Below, piece by piece: positions 1,769 to 34,415 of a DNA stretch of 34,596 bases. The stretch is from Alphaproteobacteria bacterium. GTDB lineage: Bacteria; Pseudomonadota; Alphaproteobacteria; Micavibrionales; Micavibrionaceae. The notes below the pieces were generated by a model that made no database searches, was not told the origin of the DNA, and was given only the letters and a program-made list of their open reading frames with translations. Position numbers and translations under genes: made by a program. Positions within the stretch are counted from its first letter, which is position 1; each line of letters opens with the position of its first letter. The DNA is taken from contig JAOUOR010000015.1 of the NCBI GenBank assembly GCA_029880245.1, positions 1-34,596 on the forward strand, written 5' to 3'.

Positions 1769-1841
1769 GATATAAAAAACTTATTTTTATCATAAGTTTA
1801 TTTCGCGATATTAAAATCACTTAAGTATAGGCGCCATATCC

Positions 1842-3122: not shown

Positions 3123-3129
3123 TAATGTT

Positions 3130-3696: not shown

Positions 3697-3743
3697 CATT
3701 CAGGTTTAGGCTAAAGAGTAAAGACGGAAAAACGATTAAATCA

Positions 3744-5867: not shown

Positions 5868-5921
5868 TCATGTCATATCAAAGCAAGAGGGAAAGCTTTA
5901 TCTGCGAATCTACACAAGCCT

Positions 5922-8089: not shown

Positions 8090-8099
8090 TTAATTTCCA

Positions 8100-10142: not shown

Positions 10143-10160
10143 TTACTCTACCTAAACCCC

Positions 10161-11675: not shown

Positions 11676-11683
11676 AATGAAAC

Positions 11684-12676: not shown

Positions 12677-12709
12677 GTAAGAAAATTCTACGCCCGAGCA
12701 AATATTACA

Positions 12710-14760: not shown

Positions 14761-14863
14761 AAATTGTTCCCTAATATGGTTACTCTTGGCCTTGAAGAGG
14801 GATAAAAATGCCTATACATTTCGCGAGAAACTATGACATTTCATAATAATTAATCAAGAACTT
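14761..14863. promoter_or_regulatory. Divergent intergenic region between two glycosyltransferase operons
   Basis: This 103-base spacer separates the start of the minus-strand operon (14760) from the plus-strand WecG-like gene (14864), so it must hold at least one and probably two promoters. It is AT-rich. The only element I can assign confidently is the minus-strand ribosome binding site just upstream of 14760. Promoter boxes are not unambiguous by eye. Confidence 0.45.
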
Positions 14864-15601: not shown

Positions 15602-16494
15602 GAACTTCGGTCATTATACCGAATTATAATTACGGGCGTTACCTTCCTCACGCCATCGACAGCGTTTTAAACCAAACAACTCCGGTCGATGAAATTATCG
15701 TAGTCGATGATGGTTCAACCGATAGTTCAAAAAGTATTCTTGAAAGCTATGGCGATAAAATTACGGCCATTTTCCAGCCCAATGCCGGACAAGCTGCAGC
15801 TTTTAATGTAGGCGTCAAGAAAGCCACTGGCGATATTATTTTTCTGCTAGACGCGGATGACCTTTTTCATAGCGATAAAATAAAAACCATCAAAAAACTC
15901 TACGCAGATTATCCTGATATCGGCTGGATTTTCCATGAGCTTAAACACATTAATGATGATGCGCTAAAGAAGAGTTTCAAAGATGCCGGAACTCTTGATG
16001 ATACAGAAATGGAAATCATTGATAAAATTTCAATGATGAAAAATGGGAAGCTGGATTATTACGCCCCAGCCACTTCCGGCCTGTCATTCCGCAAGATTAT
16101 GATTGACTTCATCTTTCCCCTGCCAACCGCAGAATCCATCTATATCAGTGATCACTATATAAAGTTTCTGGCTTTATCCAGCGCAAAAGGCATTCACATT
16201 AAAAATGAACTGGGTATACAATTGATCCATGAGGATAACCTTTATACAGGAAAAACAGATCACTTCAAAAAAGCTCGTCTTTTTATAAACACAGCCTATC
16301 ACCTTAAACAAAAACAATCTTCGCTCGGTACATTTTGCGATAATCTCTACGCCGATGCCCTTCTTAGTTATAGCAAAGCCGGAAAACCAAAAGAACTTGA
16401 TACATTTATCAGGCAATATGGAAGTGCTATGAGTATATTACAAAAAGCCAAAATCAACCTAAAATTCTGGATCAAAAAAAGCAGGCTAGCATAA
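15598..16494 (+). CDS. Family 2 glycosyltransferase
   Basis: A 298-residue GT-A transferase with textbook motifs: SVIIPNYNYGRYLPHAIDSV, EIIVVDDGSTDSSKSIL, AGQAAAFNVGV and the DXD site FLLDADDLF near residue 85. The C-terminal third is helical with basic patches and probably handles the acceptor. It is translationally coupled to the WecG-like gene through a 4-base overlap, and the pair forms a short plus-strand operon. Its stop codon sits in the loop of the hairpin at 16481-16505. That hairpin serves as terminator mainly for the opposite strand. Confidence 0.92.
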   Translation: MRTSVIIPNYNYGRYLPHAIDSVLNQTTPVDEIIVVDDGSTDSSKSILESYGDKITAIFQPNAGQAAAFNVGVKKATGDIIFLLDADDLFHSDKIKTIKKLYADYPDIGWIFHELKHINDDALKKSFKDAGTLDDTEMEIIDKISMMKNGKLDYYAPATSGLSFRKIMIDFIFPLPTAESIYISDHYIKFLALSSAKGIHIKNELGIQLIHEDNLYTGKTDHFKKARLFINTAYHLKQKQSSLGTFCDNLYADALLSYSKAGKPKELDTFIRQYGSAMSILQKAKINLKFWIKKSRLA

Positions 16495-16505
16495 AACCAG
16501 CCTGC
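16474..16505 (-). terminator. Rho-independent terminator of the RTX gene
   Basis: A perfect 7-base inverted repeat, GCAGGCT at 16481-16487 and AGCCTGC at 16499-16505, encloses an 11-base loop. On the minus strand it is followed directly by seven T (16474-16480 read as A on plus). This fits an intrinsic terminator for the minus-strand RTX gene ending at 16532. On the plus strand no T-run follows, although the stem could still protect the end of the GT2 message. Confidence 0.8.
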
Positions 16506-18569: not shown

Positions 18570-20012
18570 TCAAAACTGAAAATATAAAAAAGGTGAGTAA
18601 CTCATAGCAATTAATCGGGTGACTGCAACTATAAATAATGCAAACACGGCAACTTGTATAATCATCCCGGGTTTGGTTTGCATCGCCATACTTCCCTTAG
18701 ATAGCTCAACGGGAATACGATTTTTCTCGAAATGCGGCGCGATAAAGACCAGTAATAATCCAGCAAACATGGCTACCAAATGTATACCTTTAACTTGCCA
18801 TATCAAAGCATCGCTAAGCCCTATTCCATTCATCCCCAGCATCGCATAATAAAATGCAAACGCTGATTCCACACTATGAGCACGGAACAGCACCCATCCT
18901 ATCATGACAAAAATAAATGTCATGAACATCGTTGAATAGCGCTTTAAAATACTTTCCGGTGCATTTGGATCAACTCCAACTATACGCTCAATGGCTAGTA
19001 TAATCCCGTGCCATGCCCCCCAGAGGATAAAAGTCCAGTTTGCACCGTGCCATAACCCGCCCAAAAGCATAGTCAGAAACAGATTTATATAAGTTCTGAC
19101 CTTACCCTTACGGCTCCCGCCAAGCGGAATATACAGATAATCACGAAGCCATGTAGAAAGGCTAATATGCCACCTACGCCAAAATTCTGTTATAGAACGG
19201 CTTATATAGGGATTATTGAAGTTCTCGATAAAACGGAATCCCATCATTAAAGCAAGCCCCACAGCCATTTCACTATAGCCTGCAAAATCGTAATAAAGCT
19301 GGATTGTGTAGGCAATCGTGCCCAACCACGCATCTGCCATAGTCGGATTTTCAAGCGCAAAAGCTGCATCAGCCAAAGGCGCAACAGAGTCCGCAATCAA
19401 AACCTTTTTGGCAAATCCACACATAAAGCGATATGCCCCTTCCGAGAACTTATCATAGCTGTGCGTACGCGAAGTAAACTGCCATGCGAGATCCTTATAG
19501 CGCAGAACAGGACCGGCAATAAGATGCGGAAAAAGCGTAATAAACGCTGCAAAATCAAAGAGATTTTTGGTTGCCGGTGTATCTTGCCGCCAGACATCAA
19601 CAATATAGCTGATAGCATGAAAGACAAAGAACGAAATACCGATAGGTAATAACACTTCAACGATACCCGTTGCCGGCTCCAATCCAAAACTTTCCAGCAT
19701 CGAATGAAAACTGCTTACACCGAAATTATAATATTTGTAATAGCCCAAAGTCAGAAGGTTTGCACTCACCCCGACCCTAAGGAACCATTTCGCATTCGGA
19801 TTATCCCTATAACGCTCGATTAAAAGCGCTATAAGCCAGCTACCTCCTATTATTGCGTAAAGCATAAACAGGAAGTCCAAACGCCACCACGCATAAAATA
19901 GGGAACTTCCGAGCAATATGATCATAGAACGCATAAAGCGCGGAGATATGTAATAGACCAACAAAAATATCGGCAAAAAAGCAAAAAGAAATATCGGAGA
20001 TGCAAATACCAT
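18570..20012 (-). CDS. algI: AlgI, MBOAT membrane O-acetyltransferase of alginate
   Basis: A 480-residue polytopic MBOAT protein. It begins with MVFASPIFLFAFLPIF, typical of AlgI, and includes the FRFIENFNNPYISRSITEFW segment and RRWHISLSTWLRDYLYIPLGG. It also has GGLWHGANWTF, whose His322 matches in number the essential His322 of Pseudomonas AlgI. AlgI passes acetyl groups from a cytoplasmic donor across the inner membrane to the periplasmic transferases. MBOAT/DltB-like homologues also serve other polymers, but AlgJ, AlgF and AlgX homologues nearby support an alginate role. It is about 40 residues shorter than Pseudomonas AlgI at the C-terminus. It lies downstream of the AlgE-type epimerase, separated by a hairpin terminator, so it may have its own promoter. 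Confidence 0.92.
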   Translation of the reverse strand: MVFASPIFLFAFLPIFLLVYYISPRFMRSMIILLGSSLFYAWWRLDFLFMLYAIIGGSWLIALLIERYRDNPNAKWFLRVGVSANLLTLGYYKYYNFGVSSFHSMLESFGLEPATGIVEVLLPIGISFFVFHAISYIVDVWRQDTPATKNLFDFAAFITLFPHLIAGPVLRYKDLAWQFTSRTHSYDKFSEGAYRFMCGFAKKVLIADSVAPLADAAFALENPTMADAWLGTIAYTIQLYYDFAGYSEMAVGLALMMGFRFIENFNNPYISRSITEFWRRWHISLSTWLRDYLYIPLGGSRKGKVRTYINLFLTMLLGGLWHGANWTFILWGAWHGIILAIERIVGVDPNAPESILKRYSTMFMTFIFVMIGWVLFRAHSVESAFAFYYAMLGMNGIGLSDALIWQVKGIHLVAMFAGLLLVFIAPHFEKNRIPVELSKGSMAMQTKPGMIIQVAVFALFIVAVTRLIAMSYSPFLYFQF

Positions 20013-20244: not shown

Positions 20245-20266
20245 GGCCAGCGATTAAACGCTGGCC
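20245..20266. repeat. Perfect inverted repeat spanning the epimerase stop codon
   Basis: GGCCAGCG (20245-20252) and CGCTGGCC (20259-20266) form an 8-base GC-rich stem with loop ATTAAA, and the loop contains the stop codon of the minus-strand epimerase gene. No strong T-run follows on either strand. It may therefore be a message-stabilising 3' hairpin or one part of a two-step terminator with the hairpin at 20053-20081. Confidence 0.6.
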
Positions 20267-22569
20267 GTTGTTGTAAGAGTTATCACACCATCTTCGTATA
20301 GTGTATTGGCATCGCCAAATCCGGTGACACCGACAAGGTTAGCCACTTCCACGAAGTTTTCTCCGTTTGCGGCGCCATCCGCATCAACAGAGACATAAGT
20401 GTTACCATCTCTTTCCGTAAGAAAAAGGAAGTCCGTAATGCTGTCCGTTACAGGATCAAAGCTTAAGACATCTGTAATTTCAAGCGTCTCGCCGTTATTA
20501 ATTCTAAAATCAAGAATGATATCAACACCGGACTGTGTTCCTTGTATGATAAACTTGTCGGAGCCGTCTCCACCCTTCATAACGTCAGCACCATCGCCGC
20601 CATAAAGGATATCATTACCGCTATTACCCCAAAGCTCATCTCCGCCGCCATGGCCAACCAGAATATCATCTCCGGCATAACCTTTGATGACATCAGCCGC
20701 ATTTCCGCCAACAAGAACATCTTGACCGGACGTGCCTTCCACATACATGGAAACCATGGACAAATTACTGTCCAGCTCTACGTTCTCAACACCTTTTTCC
20801 GAAGTAATGAAGTTTTCAATACTCAGATTTTCACCTCTGACACCTGATAAAGTCACGAGACTTACAGCCTGCGCTGAACCCAGATAGCCATCACTATCCA
20901 GCATAATTTCAACATCCGAACCTTGCTGAACAATCTGGATATAACCGGCATCAAAGGCCAGATCACGTGTAAAACCAAGAAATTGTGACGTAATATCTGT
21001 AATATCAATTGTTTCTGCATAATTGAAATCCACAACGACATCACCAGCCTCATTAAGATTGTTAAAGACAAAACTGTCTATACCGGAACTGCCCTTGAGT
21101 TTATCGTGGCCTTCCCCACCAATAAGGATGTCATTGCCGGCATTACCTTCCAAATAATCATCACCGGCTCCACCTATAAGAGTATCGTCACCGGCACGCC
21201 CTTTGAGGGTATCATCGCCAGCTCCGGCTTCCAGTGTATTATTATCCTTATCACCACTCAGGAACAAAGCTTCGATAACTTCCATATCCAACACAGGATC
21301 AGATGTTTCATCAATGACAGGTTCCTGCGTCGTTGTGTCCTGAACCGGAGCAGTCTGAGAATCCTGACTATCTGTCGTCGTAGCGACTTGATCGCCTTGC
21401 AAATAATTATCAGGCAAAGCCGCAGAAATAGATAGCTTGATGTATGTATACGCTGATGAGTCATCCAACAAAACAGACGAATCGTTAAGATTGACATTAT
21501 CTGCGCTTACACCATTACCGGCATAGACATTATTGACCGTCGTGTCGCCGATTTCATTAAAAGCAAAACGTCCCGATATAATGTCATTATTGATAATAAG
21601 GTTGTCATATGTATCACCGGGACCACCCAGACTTCCTGTATAAGGTTTCAGGCTGACCGCATAATTCTCCGAGCGCAGAATATTGCCGTCAATAACAATA
21701 TGATGAGCGCCTTCAAGTTGAATAGCATCCGCGCCATTGCCATAGACATTATTGCCAATAACTTGCGAATATTCAGATTGTTTCAGCAAAATTCCGTTCT
21801 TGCCATTGCCGTAAACTTCATTGTTTTCAATCAAGATATTGTAGTTGAGCATATCCTCCCAACCATCAATAGACTGACTTCCAGAGCCTTTCTGGACAAC
21901 AATACCCTGCTCGCCATTATCGTAGGAAATATTATCACGAAGAACAACGTCATGGCTGTGTGTCACGATGTTAAAACCGTGACGGTCATTGGCATAGGCA
22001 ATATTGTTCTCATAAACCGCATTAGATACGAAATCAGCAATAAAACCGTCCCAACTATTGTGGTGTGCAATACAATCACGAATAGTAAGATTCGTTGTCT
22101 GTTCGTGAGGATTAAACGCAATACGTGATACGTCATGTATCTCTACACGTTCAATCAGAATATTATTATCCGCTTCCGGACTACCGGGCAGAACGCCCGT
22201 TTGAATACCATCAATTTCAGCCGTAACATTTTCGCGGTTACCGTCAATCGTAAGGTCACGAATAATTACATTTTCCGTTACCTCATTCACAGGCGTTCTA
22301 ATGACCCCCGAAATCTTGGTTTCCTGTGTATCCGCAACTTTCAAAATAGTTTCACCAATACCGTCACCAAAAAGCTCCGTATTACTGTAGATACGAATAC
22401 CGCCTTCTGAAGCTTTATCAGTACTGGAAATTATATAGGTTCCGGCTGCCAGATAAACCTGGCCACCTCCGGCATCTCTTGCCGCATCTAATGCAGCCTG
22501 TATAGCCGCGGTATCATCAATATTGTCATTGGGGTTAGCACCGTAATCACGTGGATCATACACAGTCAT
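20254..22569 (-). CDS. AlgE-type extracellular mannuronan C5-epimerase homologue with altered active site
   Basis: A 771-residue secreted protein. Residues 1 to about 370 form a right-handed beta-helix (pectate-lyase-3 type) closely matching the A-module of Azotobacter AlgE enzymes, which turn mannuronate into guluronate in the polymer. There follow a Thr/Gln-rich linker (about 395-435), an RTX block (about 445-500) with a beta domain, a second RTX block (about 620-690), and a C-terminal type I secretion region. The substrate-site residues Asp179, Arg196 and His197 match AlgE4 positions 178, 195 and 196. However, the catalytic YGFDPHE motif reads IAFNPHE at 150-156: Tyr is Ile and Asp is Asn, with His155 kept. 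Activity is therefore doubtful and a binding role is possible. A strong AGGAG site precedes the start. Confidence 0.9.
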   Translation of the reverse strand: MTVYDPRDYGANPNDNIDDTAAIQAALDAARDAGGGQVYLAAGTYIISSTDKASEGGIRIYSNTELFGDGIGETILKVADTQETKISGVIRTPVNEVTENVIIRDLTIDGNRENVTAEIDGIQTGVLPGSPEADNNILIERVEIHDVSRIAFNPHEQTTNLTIRDCIAHHNSWDGFIADFVSNAVYENNIAYANDRHGFNIVTHSHDVVLRDNISYDNGEQGIVVQKGSGSQSIDGWEDMLNYNILIENNEVYGNGKNGILLKQSEYSQVIGNNVYGNGADAIQLEGAHHIVIDGNILRSENYAVSLKPYTGSLGGPGDTYDNLIINNDIISGRFAFNEIGDTTVNNVYAGNGVSADNVNLNDSSVLLDDSSAYTYIKLSISAALPDNYLQGDQVATTTDSQDSQTAPVQDTTTQEPVIDETSDPVLDMEVIEALFLSGDKDNNTLEAGAGDDTLKGRAGDDTLIGGAGDDYLEGNAGNDILIGGEGHDKLKGSSGIDSFVFNNLNEAGDVVVDFNYAETIDITDITSQFLGFTRDLAFDAGYIQIVQQGSDVEIMLDSDGYLGSAQAVSLVTLSGVRGENLSIENFITSEKGVENVELDSNLSMVSMYVEGTSGQDVLVGGNAADVIKGYAGDDILVGHGGGDELWGNSGNDILYGGDGADVMKGGDGSDKFIIQGTQSGVDIILDFRINNGETLEITDVLSFDPVTDSITDFLFLTERDGNTYVSVDADGAANGENFVEVANLVGVTGFGDANTLYEDGVITLTTTASV

Positions 22570-22863: not shown

Positions 22864-24387
22864 TTAGCTAAAGATCCAATAAGGAACTTCCATTACACCG
22901 GAGAAGAAACCGACCAGCGCAACAAACACTGTCATAGCTATGCCATAGACATAATGAGATGTAAATTTCACAAATTTTGTTTGCCAACCACTCATGCCAC
23001 GTTGCAATTTCGTTTTTTGGCGCGTCCATGATTGCTGGTCGAGTCGGAAAAACACGAAAGTCTTAATGACTGAGCCCCATATCTGGTTGTAATAGATCAA
23101 AAACGGATAATACCAACTGAGTACAGGACGCGAGGTCAGCAACATCAAAGTCATTATCCAGCGCGTAAACCCAATCCACGCAATATAAATAGGGAAGAAC
23201 GCAACAGAATGTTTAATGACAAGCATGATCGCAAAAACCGGACCGGCCAATGATGTCCACATGGAAATTCTCTGGTCAACCACACACCACCAAACAAACA
23301 GCCCTACTCTGTGTGGGCCCAATCTAACGGCACGACCATTTGTGCGCAGCATATTCCCAAACCAACGGAACATAAGTTGTGTCGAAGCCCGCAGGAAATA
23401 CGGTGATGGAGGATGCTCAACCGTCATGACAACAGTATCGGGAATATAAAGCATGTCATAGCCGCGCTTGATAACCCAATACCAGCTTGATTTATCATCC
23501 CCCGTCAAAAACTTGAATTTACCCAGACGCCAGTGATCAATCGAATCGTTTTGCACGTCATGTATAAAATCAGGATCAGTAATAATCTCGGCGCGAAACA
23601 TCGACATCCGTCCCGTAAGTGTCAAAACCTTTTTGGATAAAGCAACAGAGTTCATTAGAATCTGGCGCTGCGCGAATCGCAAATGGTGCCACTCACGGAT
23701 AATCTTGCTGCCCTTAACATGACATTCCTCATCCGTAGTCAAAGCCCCAAGATTCGGCATATATTTGAAGAACGGCGCACATTTGCGAATTAGCCCCTCG
23801 CCAAGAATCGAATCACCGTCAATCACAGCCACAACAGCATCAGGCGCAGGCATATCACGGGATATCGCGCGAAAACCCTGAGCAAGTCCATCGCGCTTTC
23901 CAGTACCGGGAATCCGGACAATCTGGAGCTTTACATGCCCGGGAGGATCAAGCATCTCGAAAATCTGCTTAAACATAATCTCATCGGACATTTCGACAAT
24001 AGAGGCAACAATCGTTGCAGGAACACCGCAATTAATCGCTTCTCGAATAGCGGCTGCATAAACTTCACCGGCGGTCTGTGCCTCGATCCGAAAGGCCGTG
24101 ACCAGCAAATACACATGAGACGGCATTAACTCATCAATTCGGGAATCAACCTCACGGCGCATTTTGGGAAATACATATCTATGATATATAACAGAACGCG
24201 TAAAATGAATTAGGCCCCAACTATAGCGCCAGACAGCCAACCCCCCGACAACGAGGATAAACTGTGTCGATGAAGGATCCAGCGCCACAGCAGGTAAAGT
24301 GGAGACAAGGACGATCAATAATACTGTATAAACAGTAAAACCGAACGTCCCTTTGGGAAGAAACGATTTCCGACCAAAGTCTTCCAT
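22864..24387 (-). CDS. alg8: Alg8, mannuronan synthase (membrane GT2)
   Basis: A 507-residue inner-membrane processive glycosyltransferase that polymerises GDP-mannuronic acid and moves the chain to the periplasm. Two N-terminal membrane helices precede the GT-A core. Visible motifs are VIDGDS (about 189-193), the TGDDKSSWYW acceptor-site region (about 295-304, the TED-like position) and Q-L-M-F-R-W (337-342), the QxxRW-type product-binding motif. Several C-terminal helices follow. The frame is open to 24486, but that extension overlaps algD. The ATG at 24387 has a clear GAAGGG ribosome binding site and gives a length close to the 494 residues of Pseudomonas Alg8. It lies 49 bases after algD. 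The partner Alg44 is not in the window. Confidence 0.94.
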   Translation of the reverse strand: MEDFGRKSFLPKGTFGFTVYTVLLIVLVSTLPAVALDPSSTQFILVVGGLAVWRYSWGLIHFTRSVIYHRYVFPKMRREVDSRIDELMPSHVYLLVTAFRIEAQTAGEVYAAAIREAINCGVPATIVASIVEMSDEIMFKQIFEMLDPPGHVKLQIVRIPGTGKRDGLAQGFRAISRDMPAPDAVVAVIDGDSILGEGLIRKCAPFFKYMPNLGALTTDEECHVKGSKIIREWHHLRFAQRQILMNSVALSKKVLTLTGRMSMFRAEIITDPDFIHDVQNDSIDHWRLGKFKFLTGDDKSSWYWVIKRGYDMLYIPDTVVMTVEHPPSPYFLRASTQLMFRWFGNMLRTNGRAVRLGPHRVGLFVWWCVVDQRISMWTSLAGPVFAIMLVIKHSVAFFPIYIAWIGFTRWIMTLMLLTSRPVLSWYYPFLIYYNQIWGSVIKTFVFFRLDQQSWTRQKTKLQRGMSGWQTKFVKFTSHYVYGIAMTVFVALVGFFSGVMEVPYWIFS

Positions 24388-24436
24388 CTTGAACCCTTCT
24401 TTCTCCGTATGAGTAATATGATGATGACCCGAATAA

Positions 24437-25759
24437 TTACCAGCAAATACCAGTATAAGATTCTCTCTTCTCGAGAGTTTCATCATTTAAGCGCACTAGA
24501 TCAATGACTGCAAGGTTATCATTAGCCTTATTATTAATAATTGTCGCAAAATCCTTATTACCGTTACCAATAACAACGAGATCACTTACAGCCAAAAGAT
24601 CCTCTGCATTCTCGGTCAGGCATTTTGAAATATGCGGTATACCTTCGCGGATATATTTCTGGTTAGCACCTTCCATATTAGCTGCCTCAAAAACACATGG
24701 GTCATAAACCGTAAGCTCGTAACCATCTTTAAGAAGGAGATCGGCCAAAGTCACAAGCGGACTTTCACGAAGGTCATCAGTACCGGCTTTGAAGCTCAAG
24801 CCCATCATACCGATTTTCTTCTTGCCGGACTTGTCGATCATAGACTTCGCGCGGCGCACCTGCTCGTCATTGGCTTCAAGAAGCGCATCAAAAATAGGTG
24901 TCTGGATATCCTTGTCCTTACCTTTTGCGCGAATTGCACGAACGTCCTTGGGCAAACATGACCCACCAAAAGCAAAACCGGGCTTCAGATAAGCTTTGGA
25001 GATATTCAGCTTTGTATCAAGGAAGAAAATATCCATGACTTTGTGACTGTCCACACCTAGTTCCTTCAGGATATTACCAAGCTCATTGGCAAAACCGACT
25101 TTCATGGCGTGCCATGCGTTATCCGCATATTTCACACCTTCGGAAACTTCAACGTCACAAACAACCAGATCAGCTTCAATGCCTTTATAAACATCTTTCA
25201 TCATCTGGGCTGTTTTCTCATCCTTGGCACCAATAACAATTTTTGGTGGATTGAAGTAATCGTAAATCGCTGTACTTTCGCGCAGGAATTCAGGGTTATT
25301 ACCAAAACCAAAGCCTTCACCGGCTTTTTTGCCAGAGGATTTCTCCAAAGCTGGAATAGCGATATCGCGGGCCGTACCTGGAACAACTGTTGAGCGAAGA
25401 ACCACAGAGTGAAACTCCTCTTTATCTTTAATTACTTCTCCGATTTGTGCACAAACCGCTTCAACATAGTCCAGTTTCAATGAACCATCTTCATTACTTG
25501 GCGTACCCACACAAATCAAGGATATATCGGAATTCATAACCGCTTCACGAACATCAAGAGTAGCTTTAAGCCTCCCGTTATCCGCATTGCGTTTGATCAT
25601 TTCAGGAAGGTCCGGCTCGATAATCGGCGAACGTCCTTCTGCAAGACATTTAACTTTAATAGGGTCCATATCAATGGCGATAACATCAAACCCGGATTCC
25701 GCCAGACAAGCACTGGCAACCGCGCCTACATAACCCAAACCGAATACACTAATTCTCAT
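24437..25759 (-). CDS. algD: AlgD, GDP-mannose 6-dehydrogenase
   Basis: A 440-residue cytoplasmic enzyme oxidising GDP-mannose to GDP-mannuronic acid with two NAD, the committed alginate step. The N-terminal Rossmann motif is MRISVFGLGYVGAV, followed by VGTPSNEDGSL and LRSTVVPGT. The catalytic Cys is in FGGSCLPKD and falls at residue 268, identical in number to Pseudomonas AlgD. The C-terminal UDP-binding-type domain has GLSFKAGTDDLRESP. A GTG codon lies immediately before, but the ATG at 25759 gives the family's usual start, with GGGAG upstream. Of all UDP/GDP-sugar dehydrogenases the AlgD identity is favoured because alg8 is the next gene. Confidence 0.95.
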   Translation of the reverse strand: MRISVFGLGYVGAVASACLAESGFDVIAIDMDPIKVKCLAEGRSPIIEPDLPEMIKRNADNGRLKATLDVREAVMNSDISLICVGTPSNEDGSLKLDYVEAVCAQIGEVIKDKEEFHSVVLRSTVVPGTARDIAIPALEKSSGKKAGEGFGFGNNPEFLRESTAIYDYFNPPKIVIGAKDEKTAQMMKDVYKGIEADLVVCDVEVSEGVKYADNAWHAMKVGFANELGNILKELGVDSHKVMDIFFLDTKLNISKAYLKPGFAFGGSCLPKDVRAIRAKGKDKDIQTPIFDALLEANDEQVRRAKSMIDKSGKKKIGMMGLSFKAGTDDLRESPLVTLADLLLKDGYELTVYDPCVFEAANMEGANQKYIREGIPHISKCLTENAEDLLAVSDLVVIGNGNKDFATIINNKANDNLAVIDLVRLNDETLEKRESYTGICW

Positions 25760-25939
25760 CACATTTTCTCCCGTTTCTCACTTGTGAAATTTTATTACAA
25801 AAAATTTTGCGCCTTCTTCTACAGATTTATTACGAAAAATACAAGGAAATAACGCACTTAATTCACTTTTTAAGTACTCCGTATTGATATATAAGTCTGC
25901 GAGAGATGAAAACATTATTACAAAGAGTATCAACAAAAC
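25760..25939. promoter_or_regulatory. Divergent intergenic region between algD and algL
   Basis: This 180-base AT-rich spacer holds the promoters of algD (minus) and algL (plus). On the minus strand GTGCGT (25852-25857), a 19-base spacer and TAATAA (25827-25832) make a weak sigma70-like pair, related to the TTGCGT boxes before algF and the RTX gene. A GGGAG ribosome binding site precedes algD. For algL no convincing ribosome binding site or promoter boxes stand out. Confidence 0.4.
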
Positions 25940-27064
25940 ATGTATTTTAATCTTAGAAAACGCTTATTTTGGGTCTTGCCGTGTCTCCTTCTTTTAATCT
26001 CTTGCGATTCAGAAGAAACACATCAAAAAACAAAGGGTCTACAACCCCCTTTTGACTTATCTGACATTCAAGATCGTGTAGAAAAACCTTTCACTGCAAA
26101 TTTCAAATGTAAGGAAACACCTGAGCCAATCCATGATCTCCATTTCAATTCCATGTACAGCAAGGCTTCCAAGAACTCTTCCGAGGTTGATCAGGAGGCC
26201 TACGCAAAATATCTAAGAGATACAGAAAATATCAAAATTCTTGAAAGCCAGCTTACAGTGATGGGTAACCGTTACCTGATGTCATGGCCGCATCGCATCG
26301 AAATAGCGCAGTGCATGCTCAACTGGATGGATGACTGGGCAATAGCAGATGGGTTTATGGGTGAAGCCAACCATATGGGGGAATTTGTCCGCAAATGGGC
26401 CTTGGCCTCCATCTCTTTGGCATTTTTACAAATTCGCAGCGAAGAAAATTTGGATGAAGATCAAAAAATACGTGTTAAAGACTGGATTCACCGCCTAACC
26501 GCTCAGGTCATAGCAGATTTCAGCCGCAAACCCGAGATTAACTCCCGTAATAACAATCACATGTATTGGGCAGTCTGGGGCGTAGCAAATGGCGCAGTTG
26601 TCAACAATGATCAGGAACAATTTAACTGGGCCATGAAGCAAGCTAAAAGAGCCATATCTCATATTCAGATGGATGGTACATTGCCTACAGAATTAATTCG
26701 AGGCAAAAAGGCCTATAATTATCATCATTATGCTGCCATACCTTTGTTTTATCTTGCACAAATCGCGCAAGCTAATGGTATCAATCTTTATAAGGAAAAC
26801 GACCATGGACTACAGAGATTGGCCAAACGCCTTTTGCTTAATATCGACGACCAGAGCTATTTCCAAACCCTTACAGGTAAAAAACAAGATTTAACGCGCA
26901 CCATTACTTACTCTAATCTTGTCTGGCTTGTGCCTTACTATAAGGAATATAAAGATCCCGATGCATTAAAACTGCTCAGACAATTTCACCCCGTACGCCA
27001 CAGCCGGGTTGGCGGAAATGCAGTTTTTCTCTATGGCAAGACAAAATCGTATGAAAATGACTAG
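25940..27064 (+). CDS. algL: AlgL, periplasmic alginate lyase (PL5), predicted lipoprotein
   Basis: A 374-residue alpha/alpha-toroid lyase of family PL5 that cleaves mannuronate-rich chains by beta-elimination. It clears misrouted alginate from the periplasm. The catalytic set is present: Asn206-His207 in RNNNHMYWAVWG, Arg254 in ELIRGKKA and Tyr261 in YNYHHY. The spacing (His to Arg 47, Arg to Tyr 7) equals that of the Sphingomonas A1-III lyase. The N-terminus LLLLISC looks like a lipobox with Cys22, so the enzyme is probably membrane-tethered, unlike the soluble Pseudomonas protein. It is the only plus-strand gene of the alginate cluster, divergent from algD and meeting a small unknown gene tail to tail. 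Confidence 0.93.
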   Translation: MYFNLRKRLFWVLPCLLLLISCDSEETHQKTKGLQPPFDLSDIQDRVEKPFTANFKCKETPEPIHDLHFNSMYSKASKNSSEVDQEAYAKYLRDTENIKILESQLTVMGNRYLMSWPHRIEIAQCMLNWMDDWAIADGFMGEANHMGEFVRKWALASISLAFLQIRSEENLDEDQKIRVKDWIHRLTAQVIADFSRKPEINSRNNNHMYWAVWGVANGAVVNNDQEQFNWAMKQAKRAISHIQMDGTLPTELIRGKKAYNYHHYAAIPLFYLAQIAQANGINLYKENDHGLQRLAKRLLLNIDDQSYFQTLTGKKQDLTRTITYSNLVWLVPYYKEYKDPDALKLLRQFHPVRHSRVGGNAVFLYGKTKSYEND

Positions 27065-27070
27065 AGAAAA

Positions 27071-27544
27071 TTAGCTAATATCTGGTCTATCTATACAAGC
27101 ATACCCTTTATCTTTAACTTCTTCACATCCATCAAAGATTTTATTTTTAGATACGACTTTATAACTTCCGCCTTCTTTCCTTACATAAAAATCCATATTT
27201 AATTTAGATTTAAGCTCATTTGCAAGATCTTGGGATGCCTTTTTATCTGTTGAAGATGAAACCTGAATATGAATGGGCGCATGCTCATTATTTGTTCGTT
27301 CTATCTTAACAGGTTTTTGAGAGCCCGCCGCAATCAAATTCGTCGTGGCTTGCGCACTATTATCAATTCCCTCTTTGATATCTTCACTAATTTTAAGGTG
27401 ATTTTCTACTGTAGTCGCAGTAGCAACCATTCCTATGATAGCGAATCCAGCTCTCCCTTTTTCATAGAGCGATTTACCAACCGAACTAGCTCCATCTACT
27501 AATTTATTCAAAACATTTTTTAATTTATCCAAAACATTTTTCAT
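27071..27544 (-). CDS. Hypothetical 157-residue protein, weakly SPOR-like C-terminus
   Basis: Not recognised as a known family. Residues 1-30 are amphipathic and Lys-rich (repeated KNVLDKLK-type heptads), then comes a weak hydrophobic stretch near 32-46 (AGFAIIGMVATATTV). The last 70 residues read IHIQVSSSTDKKASQDLANE with LNMDFYVRKEGGSYKVVSKN and two Cys near the end. The strand-helix-strand pattern is reminiscent of SPOR peptidoglycan-binding domains, but the match is weak. Its stop is 6 bases from the algL stop, on the opposite strand, with 116 bases to the AlgX-like gene upstream. Codon use looks like that of its neighbours. Confidence 0.6.
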   Translation of the reverse strand: MKNVLDKLKNVLNKLVDGASSVGKSLYEKGRAGFAIIGMVATATTVENHLKISEDIKEGIDNSAQATTNLIAAGSQKPVKIERTNNEHAPIHIQVSSSTDKKASQDLANELKSKLNMDFYVRKEGGSYKVVSKNKIFDGCEEVKDKGYACIDRPDIS

Positions 27545-27660: not shown

Positions 27661-29310
27661 TTATTCCCTTGAAAGAACATCTTCGGGCAAGCTACACAGC
27701 TTAGCCGTTACATTTACGCCTTCAAAATTCTGCTTGCTGTTATTAACGGCAACCGAGTACAGAAAAGATTCATCGTCTTCCCCCGTCAAAAGAAAAAACA
27801 AGTGATCCTCTTTCCCTTCATGCGGAGATTCAAACTTAACCAGTTTTGTCTTACGATCCGTCGTTTTGATAGAAATAGAAATATCCTTCTTAAGCGGACG
27901 GTCAAATTTCAATTCCAGATAGACATGATCAGTTCTGATTTTTTGCTTTTCGATCTCACTGACAACTCTAATGCGTTTTCCTGTGATCGGTTCAGGCCCA
28001 AAAGTAAGAATAGGCTCCTCACAGGGCCCAAGAGCCGCAGGGATTGCCCGCCTTAATGCCATTTCCATCCCGGAACCACCAAGATTATAATAGCTAGGCA
28101 ATTCCCAGACTAAAAAAGCCGGCTTTTGCTTTTTATAAGTATCCGATTCCAAATAGCCAATAACGGAATCGTCCATTCCCCCGCCTGTCAGTGCTACATT
28201 ATACACATCAAGAGACAAGTCTTCCTTCAAAAAACCATCAAAATTGGAATTAAACTCCCCTCTTTTGCTATTACTGGTCCCAATAAGCACAATAGGAGGG
28301 TTAGACTCCCCGAACAAATCCCCTACTTCTTTGGTGGTTTCATAGACATAATCACGCTCAGGATAAGGTACAAAACCACAGATATCACGGATAACCTTAC
28401 CGTAAAGCCCGTCATATACTTTTCCTCCCTTCCTGACAGTCGTAAATTTTTCTTTGGGCAAATCTTTCCATTGATCCGTTTCTTTTATAATAGCTGAAAC
28501 AGATTGAGCCATAGCTCTCGCACCTTCTGTACTCCAATGATGATCCGCCCAATTGAAATATTTATACCCATCTTCAGAATAAGATATCGATGTCAGATTA
28601 ACCCCTTTATTTTGAAAAGCTTCGAGAAGCCCATAAAACTGGCTCTTTAGCTCATCGACATCAAAATCTTCAATGTGTTTATTCCCTGATATTATTTTAT
28701 CTGAAGCCAATACGGAACGCGGCGGCAAATAGGCAATCACCAATTCCGTCCCCTTTAAACGCAATGATTCTGCAAATATGCGATATAATTCAGCCTTATT
28801 TTCACGGTATTTATAAACCGGATAAAAATCCTGCTGTGTACGAAAAATCCAATGGTCTTTGCCCGGCACCATAAATTTCTGGTTTTCGTTCTTTTTGTAG
28901 GATTCTTCCTCCAATAAAGCCATGCAACTTTGTGAATCACCATACGGCCCGTTCAGATCAAATATATCAATCTCATCTTTACTTGGTTTAATTGGCTCGG
29001 GCTCCCATGAAGGCTCCGCAATATAGCCCTGTTTCTTTTGCGCTTTTATCCGTTCCCTTTGAAGACGTTTCTCTTCAGCCTTCTTTTCACGTTGTATTTG
29101 TTCCTTAGATTTTACCTGTACTTTAGGTTTCGAGGCCTTAACCTGCTTAGTTTTATCCTTACGCACTGTTTTTTCTGTAGACTCAACGTCACCCCTGAGC
29201 TTTGATAGATCAATGATGCCACGATCCAGTGCAACATATATTCCAACGCTGCAAACCAGCATTATGATTATGAACAAAAGAACTGTTCTCATAAGGTTCC
29301 TCTTAATCAA
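27661..29310 (-). CDS. AlgX/AlgJ-family SGNH acetyltransferase, membrane-anchored paralogue
   Basis: A 549-residue protein with an N-terminal membrane helix (VLLFIIIMLVCSVGIYVAL, residues 10-28) and a long charged Lys/Gln-rich segment (45-110, likely coiled coil). A periplasmic AlgX-type SGNH domain follows, with Asp256-His258 in ADHHWS and nucleophile Ser346 in IGTSNSKRG. A C-terminal beta domain from about 430 carries ITIDISQ-like strands and ends near a conserved AKLC motif. The same C-terminal arrangement is seen in the protein at 32097-33701, which suggests the two arose by duplication. The expected role is transfer of acetyl groups to mannuronate residues at the export complex. The uncleaved anchor and coiled coil are unlike Pseudomonas AlgX, which is a soluble periplasmic protein. 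Confidence 0.85.
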   Translation of the reverse strand: MIKRNLMRTVLLFIIIMLVCSVGIYVALDRGIIDLSKLRGDVESTEKTVRKDKTKQVKASKPKVQVKSKEQIQREKKAEEKRLQRERIKAQKKQGYIAEPSWEPEPIKPSKDEIDIFDLNGPYGDSQSCMALLEEESYKKNENQKFMVPGKDHWIFRTQQDFYPVYKYRENKAELYRIFAESLRLKGTELVIAYLPPRSVLASDKIISGNKHIEDFDVDELKSQFYGLLEAFQNKGVNLTSISYSEDGYKYFNWADHHWSTEGARAMAQSVSAIIKETDQWKDLPKEKFTTVRKGGKVYDGLYGKVIRDICGFVPYPERDYVYETTKEVGDLFGESNPPIVLIGTSNSKRGEFNSNFDGFLKEDLSLDVYNVALTGGGMDDSVIGYLESDTYKKQKPAFLVWELPSYYNLGGSGMEMALRRAIPAALGPCEEPILTFGPEPITGKRIRVVSEIEKQKIRTDHVYLELKFDRPLKKDISISIKTTDRKTKLVKFESPHEGKEDHLFFLLTGEDDESFLYSVAVNNSKQNFEGVNVTAKLCSLPEDVLSRE

Positions 29311-29354
29311 TTGATTTCTTAAACTAATATTTTTTCAGACCACTTAAAGTGTCT

Positions 29355-30434
29355 CTACTTTTCTTTTTGTGATTGATCCACAACCACATAACGCTCCGGA
29401 ATTTCCCAGATCACAATCGAAGGCATAGAATTCTTCCATGCATTACCACCTAAATAGGTTTTCATCACAGCAAATGGCCCTAGCCCCTCATCCGCCGCAT
29501 TAAAAACATCAACCTGTAGCCTGCCTTTCAAAAACTCTGCAAAATGCCATTTGGAATTGGCACTATAACTTGTTCCCACAAGAGTCACGGGCGGAACATC
29601 ATCCCCGAATAAATCAAGAGATTCTGAAACCTCAGCCCCGTCTTCCGCGTGCACTTCTTCTGTTTTATAAACAGATAGATGATCCGGCCTAATTACCTCA
29701 TCGCTGACCCCCGGCAAATAACGAAGTAAATCACCCTCATGCTCTATATTTTGAGTATGTTCAGTAACGTAAGACTTTTTTACAATTTCACCTGAAAGAT
29801 TAAAATCTTTTGCCACAAGTTCCGCAGCAAAACCTGCGCCTTCCGGCGTCCAGTGCGTATCACTTTTAAGAAAAAGCGTATCTTTATTCTTATGGCTTTT
29901 GATGCCATCCAGCAAACCGGTTACCGTAATCTCATTGCTCTTCATAAAAGAAAGGACATCAGAATAAACATCCTTCCGGCACTGCGTGATTTTGTTGCGG
30001 CCAAGATGCTCTTCATAAACACGAGCCTTTGCTGGCACAAGCACAACATGAAGTTTTGCACCTCTGCCTTCAATCATATTTTTAACTTGAGCAACATAAT
30101 CCAAATTCTCGGCCATATGTTGTAAGGAAGACGGAAGACAGGAAAACTCCTCATCCGTGAACAACCACCCATTTTCACCAACAACAACACCTTTACGCCC
30201 CTGTCCAAACAGAAGATACTGGATTTTCCCCCATAAATTCCGGCTAGGCTCAAAAACCGGCAATGATTCATTTAAGGATTTTTCAAAATCAGGTGTCCAC
30301 GTACCAACCATAATAGATTCACGTGTTGGGTTTTCGACATTTTCCCAACCTTTAGGCATATAGAAAACTGCCATCCCAAAAGATAATGCCAGAAATACTA
30401 TAAACAAAAATCCACTCAGCTTAATATTCTGCAT
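29355..30434 (-). CDS. algJ: AlgJ, periplasmic alginate O-acetylation protein
   Basis: A 359-residue protein with an N-terminal signal anchor (residues 7-26) and an SGNH-type domain. The catalytic pair is Asp192-His194 in KSDTHWTPEG and the nucleophile is Ser289 in VGTSYSAN. These positions nearly coincide with those of Pseudomonas AlgJ (190, 192, 288). ENGWLFTDEEF near residue 87 is another family element. AlgJ works with AlgI and AlgF to acetylate nascent alginate in the periplasm. It lies between algG (7 bases upstream) and the anchored AlgX-like gene (44 bases downstream), all on one strand. AlgI itself is encoded about 10 kb away in the window, not adjacent as in Pseudomonas. Confidence 0.9.
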   Translation of the reverse strand: MQNIKLSGFLFIVFLALSFGMAVFYMPKGWENVENPTRESIMVGTWTPDFEKSLNESLPVFEPSRNLWGKIQYLLFGQGRKGVVVGENGWLFTDEEFSCLPSSLQHMAENLDYVAQVKNMIEGRGAKLHVVLVPAKARVYEEHLGRNKITQCRKDVYSDVLSFMKSNEITVTGLLDGIKSHKNKDTLFLKSDTHWTPEGAGFAAELVAKDFNLSGEIVKKSYVTEHTQNIEHEGDLLRYLPGVSDEVIRPDHLSVYKTEEVHAEDGAEVSESLDLFGDDVPPVTLVGTSYSANSKWHFAEFLKGRLQVDVFNAADEGLGPFAVMKTYLGGNAWKNSMPSIVIWEIPERYVVVDQSQKEK

Positions 30435-30441
30435 TCTTAAC

Positions 30442-32121
30442 TCAATTATATTCTTCTTCGTCTATATTAGACTCTTCAGCACCGTGATGATCCTTCTTCA
30501 CAGGCGGTTTTGCGTCTGGAAACCATGAGCTTTGTATTTTGATCATCACATCTTCTTTTTCCAGATTCTCCAATAACATGTCCTTATCATAATCGAAATA
30601 ATTCGGAAGTATATGTGTTCCAGCCCAAAGCTTAATATTAGACAATCCCAAAAGTTCTGCATTTGTGATTTTAAAGGCTGCAGCTCCACTTGTTCTGATC
30701 TTGGCACCTCGAACAGTTACACCAGCCTTTTGAGTATAGGGATCAAAATCAAGATCACGGGTTTCATGCCCATCAATATTAGCGGTATAAACCTCGACTG
30801 AAGTTCCGCCATTGCCGTATATCTCGTCATTATACATGTGAATATCCCAGCTATTCCGGATACGAAGACCGTTCTTTTTGTTGTAACGAAAAACATTACC
30901 CCAAGTGATATTATCCTCGCTTTCAAAAAACGTCAGGCCATCTTGCTCGTTATATTCTGCTATATTATTCGCAATCACATTATTGACACTCGTCCGGTCA
31001 ATCATAAAGCCAGAGCCTTTATTATGGTGGGAGTGGTTATCAAAGATCCACCCGTCATTGACCTCACGCGATATAATAATGCCGTGCTTTTTCTTTGTGC
31101 CATAAGCCTCGTTTTTGGCAATAATCAAACGCCTTGAACGGTCATGCGGGTCAATACCATATACGATATTGTCAATATAAGTATTACCTATGATTGCAAC
31201 ATCCTCGGCTTCATATGAATAAAACCCGTAATAGAAATCATAAAATCTGTTATTCAGCACCCAGCCCGTTGCCTCAGGCACATCAGGATCAACTTTCTGA
31301 CATGGCGTACAAGCCGAATAGCTAAGCCCGTAAGACTTCCCTCCGGAATATCCCATAGAATAGAAATCACTCTCAACTAAATAAAGACCGCCGCCGCCCC
31401 ACGTTGCAATAAAGGGACGATATTTATATTTCTCGGTTTTATAATGCTCGAGGTCAAACCATGCTTGATCATTCTTTTCTTCATCCCAACCATAAACTTT
31501 AGTCCGCAGAATATATAGATCGCCCGCATTCACCAAAAATGCGTTACTCTGCGCTGAAATCTTCAAAGCATTCACATCAATACCGGATATAGTAAGAGAT
31601 GCCCCCCTTAAAACCAAAAGAGGCATACGCAAAATATAATCATCGCCTTGTTTTTCTATGATTTTGCTTTCTGGATCATTTGTGTGAACAGCCTTATAAA
31701 GTGTTTTCCAATCATAATGCCCTGATTTTATAACAAGAGCACGAGGGCTAATTTGGCGCTGAATCAGACGAAGTTTTTGCGGGGCTTTCTTTTCAAGGAA
31801 TTTTTTGAACTCTGGATAATATTTCATTTTATCAATATAAACACGTCCAGTCTGAACCTTGGGGACACGCTTTAGTAGATTTTCATATGTAAACCCACTA
31901 ATATCCGGTAGATACGGTTTTTCAATAGGCTCATTCCATTTTACAATCTCAACTTGTAACCTTTCCTTGCTAAGAACCTCACCACCCGGCAAATAATTTC
32001 TTAAATTCCAGTACAAAACGGCCAAACACAGCACCCCGACAACGACGATCTTCACGCCATTCTCAGCCATAATACCCTGCTTTTTAGCGGGTTGGTCTAT
32101 ATACCGTCTTTCCTTTTGCAT
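30442..32121 (-). CDS. algG: AlgG, periplasmic mannuronan C5-epimerase
   Basis: A 559-residue protein with an N-terminal membrane anchor (VKIVVVGVLCLAVLYWNL, about 23-40) and a C-terminal right-handed beta-helix. The AlgG hallmark DPHD is present in YGIDPHDRS with His326 the presumed catalytic base. Helix rungs such as IIISREVNDGWIFDNHSHHN and NIAEYNEQDGLTFFESEDN follow. It converts mannuronate to guluronate during passage through the periplasm and is part of the export complex. The start at 32121 overlaps the upstream AlgX-like gene by 25 bases. An alternative ATG at 32070 (MAENGVKI) with GCAGGG before it is also plausible. The C-terminus has an acidic tail (EESNIDEEEY) absent from the Pseudomonas protein as I recall it. 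Confidence 0.94.
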   Translation of the reverse strand: MQKERRYIDQPAKKQGIMAENGVKIVVVGVLCLAVLYWNLRNYLPGGEVLSKERLQVEIVKWNEPIEKPYLPDISGFTYENLLKRVPKVQTGRVYIDKMKYYPEFKKFLEKKAPQKLRLIQRQISPRALVIKSGHYDWKTLYKAVHTNDPESKIIEKQGDDYILRMPLLVLRGASLTISGIDVNALKISAQSNAFLVNAGDLYILRTKVYGWDEEKNDQAWFDLEHYKTEKYKYRPFIATWGGGGLYLVESDFYSMGYSGGKSYGLSYSACTPCQKVDPDVPEATGWVLNNRFYDFYYGFYSYEAEDVAIIGNTYIDNIVYGIDPHDRSRRLIIAKNEAYGTKKKHGIIISREVNDGWIFDNHSHHNKGSGFMIDRTSVNNVIANNIAEYNEQDGLTFFESEDNITWGNVFRYNKKNGLRIRNSWDIHMYNDEIYGNGGTSVEVYTANIDGHETRDLDFDPYTQKAGVTVRGAKIRTSGAAAFKITNAELLGLSNIKLWAGTHILPNYFDYDKDMLLENLEKEDVMIKIQSSWFPDAKPPVKKDHHGAEESNIDEEEYN

Positions 32122-33701
32122 AGATTTGCCTTGATTGTTCCCATTGGCTTATTTGTTTCAATTTGCAGCATACTTAAATCACTGGTTTCCTTCTGATCAA
32201 ATTCCCAGTAATAATGCCCGTTATTCTCTGCTCGGCGAGAACGCGTCACGCTTATTTCTTCGGCGTTTCCATTAGAAAATAAAGTCCCTATATTTATCAT
32301 GCGATCCTCAGGATTCTTGACCTCGATTGAAAGATAACTCTCACTAGCCTTAATATGTTTAGATTCCAGATCATCAAAAACTAAAACTTCGTGCATAACA
32401 CCTTCTTTAAGCGCCGCATTTCTCTTCTGGGCACGTCTTAACTCACTGCCCTGTTCTTCAGTAAACTGTGTTACGTCAATCAACTTATCCTGAATACGCT
32501 CTAAATCCTGATCGATTATATGCTGGGATATATCAATCGTAATTTCCTTTGAAGCCAAAATATCATCGCCTCCACATGGTCCCTCCAGCGCTGCAATCAT
32601 TTGCCTGAAACCAATAGGATCATCAAAATTATGGTGAGAAAGAAACTCCCACAACAAAATCTTTGGCGGATGTTCATGAAATTCATCCGTAGCATAGAAA
32701 ACCACACCGGAACCGGAAAACGCCCCGGCTGACATTGCGCGGTTACGGATATCAGCTTTCAGTTCTTGTTTTAATGAACCCACAAAATTGAAATCTTCCT
32801 CATGCGCCGTGTTACTCGTTCCGATAATCGCAATATCCGGATATGTAACATCTCCAAACAAGCTGTCTTCCGAAATTTCTTCGCTCAAAGATGTCGTCGC
32901 CCACATAGGCCTGCGTTCGGGCGGAATAGTCACGCCACAAACCGCCTCTACAAACTCGTCAAACTCGCCTTTTTCACTCTCTAGCCACCATGTGATCTCA
33001 ACAGAAAATTCCTCCTTCTTAATGCCCTCATATTTAGGATTTTTCTTAATCATTTTAGAGACTTGCTTGGCCGTCCATTGAGCCCCCTCACGGCGCCAGT
33101 GTGGATCACCTTTGAAGAAATACACAAGATCATCAGGAATATCAGATAAATCAGGCGCATTAATACCAGCATCATTAAACCGTTTGATCAAAGCCTTATA
33201 ATTTGCACGAGCCACTTCAGGATCATACCCTTCCGGCATTGTTTCGGGATCTATGTATTTGCTCATAAGCATAGCTCTTGACGGCTGGAGCACAATGTAA
33301 AGATCAACACCTTTAGCCTTCAATCCGGCATTTACACGCTTCATGTAATTAAAAATCTCATCGGGCATAGAAAAATCAGTACGAAAATCTGCAGAACGGA
33401 AAAGCCAACCATCCTTACCGGCCCGAATATGTTTAAGAATTTTGCGCTCGCCGCGATATTGCAGATCATCCCATAACGTCTCTTGACACTCTGTCAGATC
33501 AGGATAATCCATTGGCGTAACCTCATTGGTTACCCCCTCCTCGTTTTTAAATCCCGGACGGGCCAATTGTTGGGCTTTTGTTTCATCTGCCTGCGCAATG
33601 TTTTCACCTGTCACAGAAAAGACAAAAATCAACAGCACAGCAAAGACGCGCCATAGCGCGCCTTTAATTGTTTTTATATTATTTTGCTTTCTATCAGTCA
33701 T
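32097..33701 (-). CDS. algX: AlgX-like alginate acetyltransferase
   Basis: A 534-residue secreted protein with a signal peptide (hydrophobic WRVFAVLLIFVFSVTG, possible cleavage after ENIAQA). The SGNH domain has AGKDGWLFRSADF, Asp199-His201 in GDPHWRREG and Ser296 in IIGTSNTAH. A C-terminal beta-rich domain (about 390-534), which in AlgX is a carbohydrate-binding module, ends with KANLCKRK. AlgX is the terminal acetyltransferase in the periplasmic export complex. Here the gene sits next to algG, as in Pseudomonas, and abuts the algF stop directly (start codon at 33701, algF stop at 33702). A second AlgX-like gene lies at 27661. Which one is the functional equivalent is uncertain, but gene order and the cleavable signal favour this one. 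Confidence 0.87.
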   Translation of the reverse strand: MTDRKQNNIKTIKGALWRVFAVLLIFVFSVTGENIAQADETKAQQLARPGFKNEEGVTNEVTPMDYPDLTECQETLWDDLQYRGERKILKHIRAGKDGWLFRSADFRTDFSMPDEIFNYMKRVNAGLKAKGVDLYIVLQPSRAMLMSKYIDPETMPEGYDPEVARANYKALIKRFNDAGINAPDLSDIPDDLVYFFKGDPHWRREGAQWTAKQVSKMIKKNPKYEGIKKEEFSVEITWWLESEKGEFDEFVEAVCGVTIPPERRPMWATTSLSEEISEDSLFGDVTYPDIAIIGTSNTAHEEDFNFVGSLKQELKADIRNRAMSAGAFSGSGVVFYATDEFHEHPPKILLWEFLSHHNFDDPIGFRQMIAALEGPCGGDDILASKEITIDISQHIIDQDLERIQDKLIDVTQFTEEQGSELRRAQKRNAALKEGVMHEVLVFDDLESKHIKASESYLSIEVKNPEDRMINIGTLFSNGNAEEISVTRSRRAENNGHYYWEFDQKETSDLSMLQIETNKPMGTIKANLCKRKDGI

Positions 33702-34358
33702 TTATTCTGTTGAAATCCGAGCACGATCATAATTGGCAACAGCGCCATATTCATCACCTTCTGCCACAGAAATGATATAGCTCTCGCCGCGCTCCAAAGG
33801 CCAGTCAATCAAATCCACAAATTTCTCATCACCGGAAAAAATCGCAAAGGAAACCTTGATAGGATTGATCTCGCGAACCTGAAAACTATTAGGCGCAATC
33901 GGACCAATCACAGAAACTTTTCCATCCGCTGTCTTAAGAGTAATATTATCACGCTCGGTCAGGTTATGAACTATCATCTGGGCCTTAAGTTCATTTTCGA
34001 TTTCAGGAACAACTTCCAATGTCAGCACATTATTCTTCAAAATCGCTGTATAGTATTTTCCGGCCTCAGTCTCGAACGCACCTTTACCTTGACCAAGCTC
34101 CAGATTTACCGTCCCACTTGCCACAACACCATAAGGCTTGATACCGCCGAACTTAACGCCATCCCGCTTCCGGCCATTCACAATTGGCGGCACTTCGGAC
34201 TCACCATCTTGCGCATGAAGAAAACGGATGAAAGCTGAATTCTCGGGCGGAACCTCATCGTATAGCCCCTCATCCTCGGAGGCAATAACAACAGAAGAAA
34301 ACACCATTGCCAAAACAAAAACAGGTAACACGTAAAGACGCAATAACCGTATAAACAT
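33702..34358 (-). CDS. algF: AlgF, periplasmic alginate acetylation protein
   Basis: A 218-residue protein with a signal peptide (LYVLPVFVLAMVFSSVVIA) and the AlgF N-terminal motif DEGLYDEVPPENSAFIRFLH. Two beta-rich domains follow, with YYTAILKNNVLTLEV in the first. It connects AlgI/AlgJ with AlgX in acetyl transfer. An in-frame ATG exists at 34373, but it lacks a ribosome binding site. The ATG at 34358 has AAGGG seven bases upstream and gives a length almost equal to the 216 residues of Pseudomonas AlgF. It leads the run algF, AlgX-like, algG, algJ, AlgX-like on the minus strand and is preceded by a good promoter. Confidence 0.9.
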   Translation of the reverse strand: MFIRLLRLYVLPVFVLAMVFSSVVIASEDEGLYDEVPPENSAFIRFLHAQDGESEVPPIVNGRKRDGVKFGGIKPYGVVASGTVNLELGQGKGAFETEAGKYYTAILKNNVLTLEVVPEIENELKAQMIVHNLTERDNITLKTADGKVSVIGPIAPNSFQVREINPIKVSFAIFSGDEKFVDLIDWPLERGESYIISVAEGDEYGAVANYDRARISTE

Positions 34359-34415
34359 ATCCAAACCCTTCATAAAAAATTTTGTAATTCAAATAGCTAT
34401 CTTGTTACGGCCCTA

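Follow-up and report, generated by a model that had tools for sequence, protein, structure and literature searches.

What do several AlgX-type acetyltransferases do in one alginate locus, and where did they come from? Two questions are open in alginate biology: why two SGNH enzymes are needed for acetylation, and in what order acetylation and epimerization take place. The locus considered here lies on a 34,596-nucleotide contig (JAOUOR010000015.1, assembly GCA_029880245.1, here C55) of an alphaproteobacterium of the family Micavibrionaceae; "the window" is this entire contig. Together with an adjoining contig, C94, it carries a complete locus for making and acetylating alginate, in which AlgI, AlgJ, and AlgF occur once each and AlgX-type proteins three times. 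The parts all come from known families; the combination with three AlgX proteins is unusual. A literature search on Micavibrio alginate found no relevant report.

An initial annotation of the window had pointed to three SGNH open reading frames (ORFs) on the minus strand (Table 1), and a motif scan returned exactly the catalytic residues that it listed: D199/H201/S296 in AlgX-1, D192/H194/S289 in AlgJ, and D256/H258/S346 in AlgX-2. All three score far above the Pfam ALGX (PF16822) cut-off of 26.5 bits. Sequence comparison with solved structures places AlgX-1 and AlgX-2 nearest to AlgX and the third protein nearest to AlgJ; this third protein is a single SGNH domain with an N-terminal anchor, VPAKARV, KSDTHW (S for T), and GTSYS. 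We modeled the two longer proteins with AlphaFold from 13-row alignments (mean predicted local distance difference test score of 76 for AlgX-1 and 81 for AlgX-2). The models match Pseudomonas AlgX (4KNC) with a Z of 42.9 and a root-mean-square deviation of 2.3 over 400 residues in both domains (AlgX-1), and with a Z of 37.1 and a deviation of 3.8 over 400 residues, model 125-542 lying on 4KNC 41-463 (AlgX-2); AlphaFold was trained on solved structures, and these matches count as support rather than independent proof. For the C-terminal carbohydrate-binding module (CBM), AlgX-1 matches PF16824 at about the cut-off in the genome search, and its structural match extends through the C terminus. 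The AlgX-2 C terminus is unmatched by PF16824 in sequence and matches CBM folds as a model. AlgX crystal structures thus cover both domains of both proteins, and the C-terminal module that the initial annotation proposed as common to them proved related in the structure search.

Two other assignments were rejected. The peptidoglycan acetyltransferase PatB family is ruled out, the closest structures being AlgX and AlgJ; with both AlgX models PatB1 lies far behind (Z of 13.9 to 15.4 versus 37 to 43 for AlgX). Cellulose acetylation (Wss) is ruled out by the neighbors, which are AlgD, Alg8, Alg44, AlgG, AlgL, and AlgE. We regard the identification of the SGNH proteins as AlgJ plus two-domain AlgX proteins as practically certain.

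The count of three SGNH proteins is correct for the window, but a fourth ALGX protein, AlgX-3, is encoded on C94, which adjoins the window's right end. C94 carries AlgX-3, Alg44 (PilZ plus HlyD-like), AlgA, a 224-residue Sel1 protein, AlgE, and AlgC. The two contigs have 15 terminal bases in common, and AlgC is complete once they are joined. In the nearest relative, Micavibrio sp. UBA1672 (locus L008), the region is continuous: algX3-alg44-algA-algK-algE-algC-algF-algX1-algG-algJ-algX2-algL-algD-alg8. The proposed join rests on the overlap, the completed ORF, and this synteny. NCBI places UBA1672 in the Bdellovibrionota, and we use "Micavibrio-type" without deciding its taxonomy; the relatives compared are mostly draft or metagenome assemblies.

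Is the second AlgX a recent copy of the first, as initially supposed? The phylogeny argues otherwise. AlgX-1 and AlgX-2 are 25% identical and fall into different old lineages. In the approximately unbiased (AU) test, a single clade of these two was rejected (p 0.002) and one of AlgX-1, AlgX-2, and AlgX-3 was rejected less strongly (p 0.02), p values that are somewhat optimistic, as the tree itself helped to define the tested groups. Both longer proteins do end in the Cys motif (AKLC or ANLC; C528 and C539) that had been taken as a sign of duplication. This cysteine belongs to a four-cysteine set kept in all three AlgX proteins, along with the Asp-His-Ser triad, and present in nearly all AlgX examined, Pseudomonas-type included; the motif therefore dates from the origin of AlgX.

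AlgX-1 of five genomes forms a deep clade. The single AlgX of two genomes from another family of the order, G865 and G874, joins it with support of 100/100, and the window AlgJ groups with the AlgJ of the same two genomes (100/99). Their genes run algF-algX-algG-algJ in G865, while G874 has algF-algX and algG-algJ on two separate contigs. Because both proteins group with their G865/G874 counterparts, AlgX-1 and AlgJ appear to be the native pair, and algF-algX1-algG-algJ the native operon, common to another family of the order. In two trees (97/90 and 96/94), AlgX-2 clusters with the AlgX that other genera carry beside algJ, usually as their single copy. AlgX-3 falls in the same family group, and most related genera have an AlgX of this second lineage as their only one. 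Since AlgX-2 and AlgX-3 belong to this other lineage, they would stem from an older split and have been added, rather than being recent copies of AlgX-1; either transfer or very old duplication could be their origin. We are confident, if short of certain, in reading the trees as two separate lineages, AlgX-1 on one side and AlgX-2/AlgX-3 on the other. The best overall explanation, which we put at a probability of roughly 65%, is that one AlgI-AlgJ relay feeds three AlgX proteins, the second-lineage copies having been added.

Either lineage can provide the sole AlgX of a locus, and one of them has His where Pseudomonas has an oxyanion Tyr. In AlgX-1 the triad is intact, and on the oxyanion side the block-II Gly is A325 and the Tyr is H357; AlgX-2 keeps the Tyr (Y408). 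An oxyanion role is known for Y328 of PaAlgX and Y348 of PpAlgJ (PMC4148444). All seven members of the AlgX-1 lineage have His for Tyr. The block-II Gly is mostly Ala in this lineage, is kept in G874, and is invariant in the remaining AlgX and AlgJ sequences of the comparison. Not every AlgX has the Tyr: Gln stands there in the single-copy AlgX of four other genomes.

These replacements bear on a division between scaffold and catalysis, in which AlgX-1 would be mainly a structural partner of AlgK, AlgE, and AlgG with a weakened active site, and AlgX-2 and AlgX-3 would transfer the acetyl group. AlgX-1 lacks the Tyr and, in most members, the Gly, yet it evolves as slowly as AlgG: nonsynonymous divergence (dN) from L008 is 0.14 for AlgX-1, 0.28 for AlgX-2, 0.18 for AlgX-3, and 0.12 for AlgG. 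We used dN alone and dropped dN/dS, synonymous sites being saturated; judged by dN, all AlgX copies look maintained. A structural AlgX-1 would also fit the distinct AlgK-binding role of Pseudomonas AlgX, which docks to AlgK (PMC9734138), and catalytically altered copies do arise, as the second AlgX of G050, G096, and G097 illustrates. Against this division, an AlgX-1-type protein with the same His is the only AlgX of G865 and of G874, and members of this lineage can be presumed to function as complete AlgX proteins; moreover, the triad is unbroken, one member retains its Gly, and four single-copy AlgX do with Gln at the Tyr position. Our working idea of AlgX-1 as a dead scaffold was weakened by the two sole-AlgX genomes, and we consider the division doubtful.

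The altered copies of G050, G096, and G097 are found near algI, adjoining it in L043 and L044, and have Asn for the catalytic Asp (N-H-H-W). They are likely non-catalytic, and better candidates for such a copy than AlgX-1.

How widespread are multiple AlgX proteins? An ALGX match over the cut-off was found in 23 of the 142 genomes of the order. Three or more ALGX proteins occur in G000, G070, G019, G022, and the fragmented G080, and separately in G050/G096/G097 and in G860; G009 has three spread over two loci. In class and phylum samples of 385 and 398 genomes, with the first six candidates scored for some genomes, no locus had more than two strong ALGX matches, the window's own genome excepted. 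One Pseudomonas-type genome in these samples has four strong matches, in two distant loci. In G860, from another family of the order, one locus (L139, contig C88) holds AlgJ and three second-lineage AlgX, an independent expansion.

The extra copies could simply be redundant, acquired by horizontal transfer or old paralogy, overlapping in activity, and kept for dosage. All copies have the triad and the fold, and extra AlgX turn up in several parts of the order (G050/G096/G097, G860, and G009), as redundancy would allow. It sits poorly with copies that are about 25% identical, whose lineage-specific residues and N termini are conserved and whose positions are kept across genera, and we think it unlikely.

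It is at their N termini that the AlgX copies differ most: AlgX-2 has an anchor and a linker, and AlgX-1 and AlgX-3 have signal peptides. AlgX-2 probably starts at ATG 29292, behind AAGAGG, rather than at TTG 29310; L008 has the identical MRT start, behind GAGG. Its hydrophobic segment lacks a signal-peptidase site in the window copy and is a plausible anchor in the window and in L008, while L009 is ambiguous. The coiled coil earlier ascribed to AlgX-2 is instead a variable linker helix, 43% charged and without heptads. AlgX-1 has a low-confidence helical insert between its domains, at about 390-435, and in it the one stretch of heptad-like spacing, at about 395-413.

The initial annotation also suggested that an extra AlgX replaces a missing AlgK. 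This can be set aside: an AlgK-like Sel1/TPR gene lies between algA and algE, both on C94 and in relatives. The matches of its product to AlgK crystal structures are weak (E 0.015-0.023) and stand among many to Sel1/TPR proteins; position and repeat type are the grounds for calling it a probable AlgK. The length of AlgK does not follow the number of AlgX copies, because a short or AlgE-fused AlgK is found in single-AlgX genomes as well. The N-terminal AlgK-binding motif of Pseudomonas AlgX was not recognizable in these AlgX proteins; AlgX-1 has a conserved YPD-L/V stretch ahead of its first Cys. Four related genomes encode the AlgE outer-membrane barrel and the AlgK-like Sel1/TPR part as one fused protein of 654-837 residues, which supports AlgK and AlgE as direct partners. 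Such fusions also occur in other exopolysaccharide exporters.

What, then, would three AlgX proteins do? Acetylation shields mannuronate from epimerization. In Pseudomonas, acetyl groups move from AlgI through AlgJ to AlgX, AlgF serving as the adaptor, and AlgX alone binds and acetylates the polymer (PMC4148444, PMC10641220, PMC9734138); AlgG epimerizes unacetylated residues (PMC9734138). If one relay feeds three AlgX proteins here, AlgI would supply AlgJ with acetyl groups through the inner membrane, and AlgF would couple AlgJ to the AlgX proteins. These would all draw on the common AlgJ and place acetyl on mannuronate at different sites in the envelope. AlgX-2 would be tethered to the inner membrane on its long charged linker, near the synthase and AlgJ. 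AlgX-1, whose gene overlaps algG by 25 bases, and AlgX-3 would be soluble in the periplasm. Because acetylated mannuronate escapes epimerization, the timing of acetylation, early or late, would set the places at which guluronate can be made by AlgG and the secreted RTX epimerase. We infer in this way the activity of each copy, its localization, and the division of labor.

The extra AlgX may set a different acetylation pattern, as first proposed. A functional split with staged acetylation is, to our analysis, the likeliest use of several AlgX, a view that we hold tentatively. Its fullest form, with three non-interchangeable AlgX proteins, one tethered and two periplasmic, acetylation staged before and after AlgG, and the secreted epimerase completing the resulting acetyl/guluronate pattern, is rather improbable. 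AlgX-2 or AlgX-3 might also acetylate another polymer of the same cell, since further polysaccharide genes lie nearby, including one for a separate AT3-SGNH acyltransferase. However, both genes lie within the alginate locus, algX-2 beside algJ and algX-3 close to alg44; the second exopolysaccharide region has its own acyltransferase; and the genome search returned a single match to the membrane-bound O-acyltransferase (MBOAT) family, AlgI. We consider this very improbable.

Four points weigh against a relay feeding three AlgX proteins. AlgX-3 was not found in L009/G022, and three copies are no rule even among close relatives. A single old clade of AlgX-1 and the family AlgX was neither established nor rejected (p 0.34). 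AlgX-1, without the oxyanion Tyr and mostly without the Gly, may be less active or inactive. Finally, the AlgX-2 orthologue of L010 carries a signal-peptidase-like site (AYA-E) after its hydrophobic segment, and the anchor is therefore not conserved; of the permanent anchor initially proposed, what stands is that this genome has an additional AlgX carrying an N-terminal anchor.

Table 1. Features of the alginate locus in the window and of related loci
Feature	Sequence	Coordinates	Strand	Evidence or remark
AlgF, acetylation adaptor	window	33702..34373	-	Pfam AlgF PF11182 E 3e-30
AlgX-1, SGNH + C-terminal CBM, signal peptide cleavable-looking	window	32097..33701	-	PF16822 180 bits; 4KNC E 4.8e-56
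AlgG, periplasmic mannuronan C5-epimerase	window	30442..32121	-	AlgG crystal structures E 6e-91; NF038177
AlgJ, N-anchored SGNH acetyl carrier	window	29355..30434	-	PF16822 223 bits; 4O8V AlgJ E 1.5e-52; AlgJ tree
AlgX-2, two-domain, N-terminal hydrophobic helix + charged linker	window	27661..29310	-	PF16822 149 bits; 4KNC E 2.2e-38
Small protein, N-terminal hydrophobic stretch	window	27071..27544	-	DUF3568 weak match E 0.003, below cut-off
AlgL, alginate lyase	window	25940..27064	+	Pfam Alginate_lyase E 7e-37
AlgD-type nucleotide-sugar dehydrogenase	window	24437..25762	-	TIGR03026 E 4e-118
Alg8-type glycosyltransferase (polymerase)	window	22864..24486	-	Glyco_tranf_2_3 E 1e-38; adjoins algD in relatives
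Secreted RTX mannuronan C5-epimerase, Azotobacter AlgE type	window	20254..22569	-	PDB AlgE4/AlgE6 and other mannuronan epimerases E 1e-76 to 3e-82; RTX repeats
AlgI, MBOAT	window	18570..20012	-	PF03062 E 1.3e-34
Second exopolysaccharide region	window	about 1000-16500		
AT3-SGNH fusion acyltransferase	window	8100-10142		within second exopolysaccharide region
AlgK-AlgE fusion	L051	12961-14925		
AlgK-AlgE fusion	L053	15589-18102		
AlgK-AlgE fusion	L056	3267-5552		by BLAST alone
AlgK-AlgE fusion	L060	4274-6583		
Second AlgX, Asp to Asn	L041	13665-15383		
Second AlgX, Asp to Asn	L043	6258-7973		
Second AlgX, Asp to Asn	L044	12190-13674		
Long AlgG-containing protein	L047	4072-7149		
Long AlgG-containing protein	L054	3597-6629		
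Long AlgG-containing protein	L058	14904-17792		

AlgG and the secreted RTX enzyme give the locus two epimerases. AlgG-containing proteins of about 960-1025 residues, about twice the usual length, occur in three genomes whose alginate locus is laid out differently. The small protein sits between algX-2 and algL; a small ORF at the equivalent place in L008 appears to differ in sequence.

One AlgJ with three old, distinct AlgX proteins offers natural variants for separating acetyl transfer, polymer guiding, and AlgK contact, and comparison with known systems shows where these depart. Like Pseudomonas AlgX (4KNC, 7ULA), the proteins combine an SGNH-like domain and a CBM, with the Asp-His-Ser triad, four cysteines, and an alginate locus. 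The differences are that the locus has three of them where Pseudomonas has one, that AlgX-1 replaces Tyr328 with His and the block-II Gly with Ala, and that AlgX-2 adds an N-terminal hydrophobic helix and a long charged linker. AlgJ resembles Pseudomonas AlgJ (4O8V) in length, N-terminal anchor, TDTHW-like motif, and GTSYS block, with no notable difference. The acetylated-cellulose system WssF/WssG/WssH/WssI likewise has an MBOAT, two SGNH proteins, and an AlgF-like protein (PMC10302187), but WssF is without a CBM (PMC4148444), and the window locus is one for alginate, with AlgD, Alg8, AlgG, AlgL, and AlgE. For atypical alginate operons of environmental bacteria, a systematic survey reports rearranged gene order and a divergent algX; the parts of that survey available to us describe rearrangement and locus loss, not several AlgX per alginate locus (PMC7112194).

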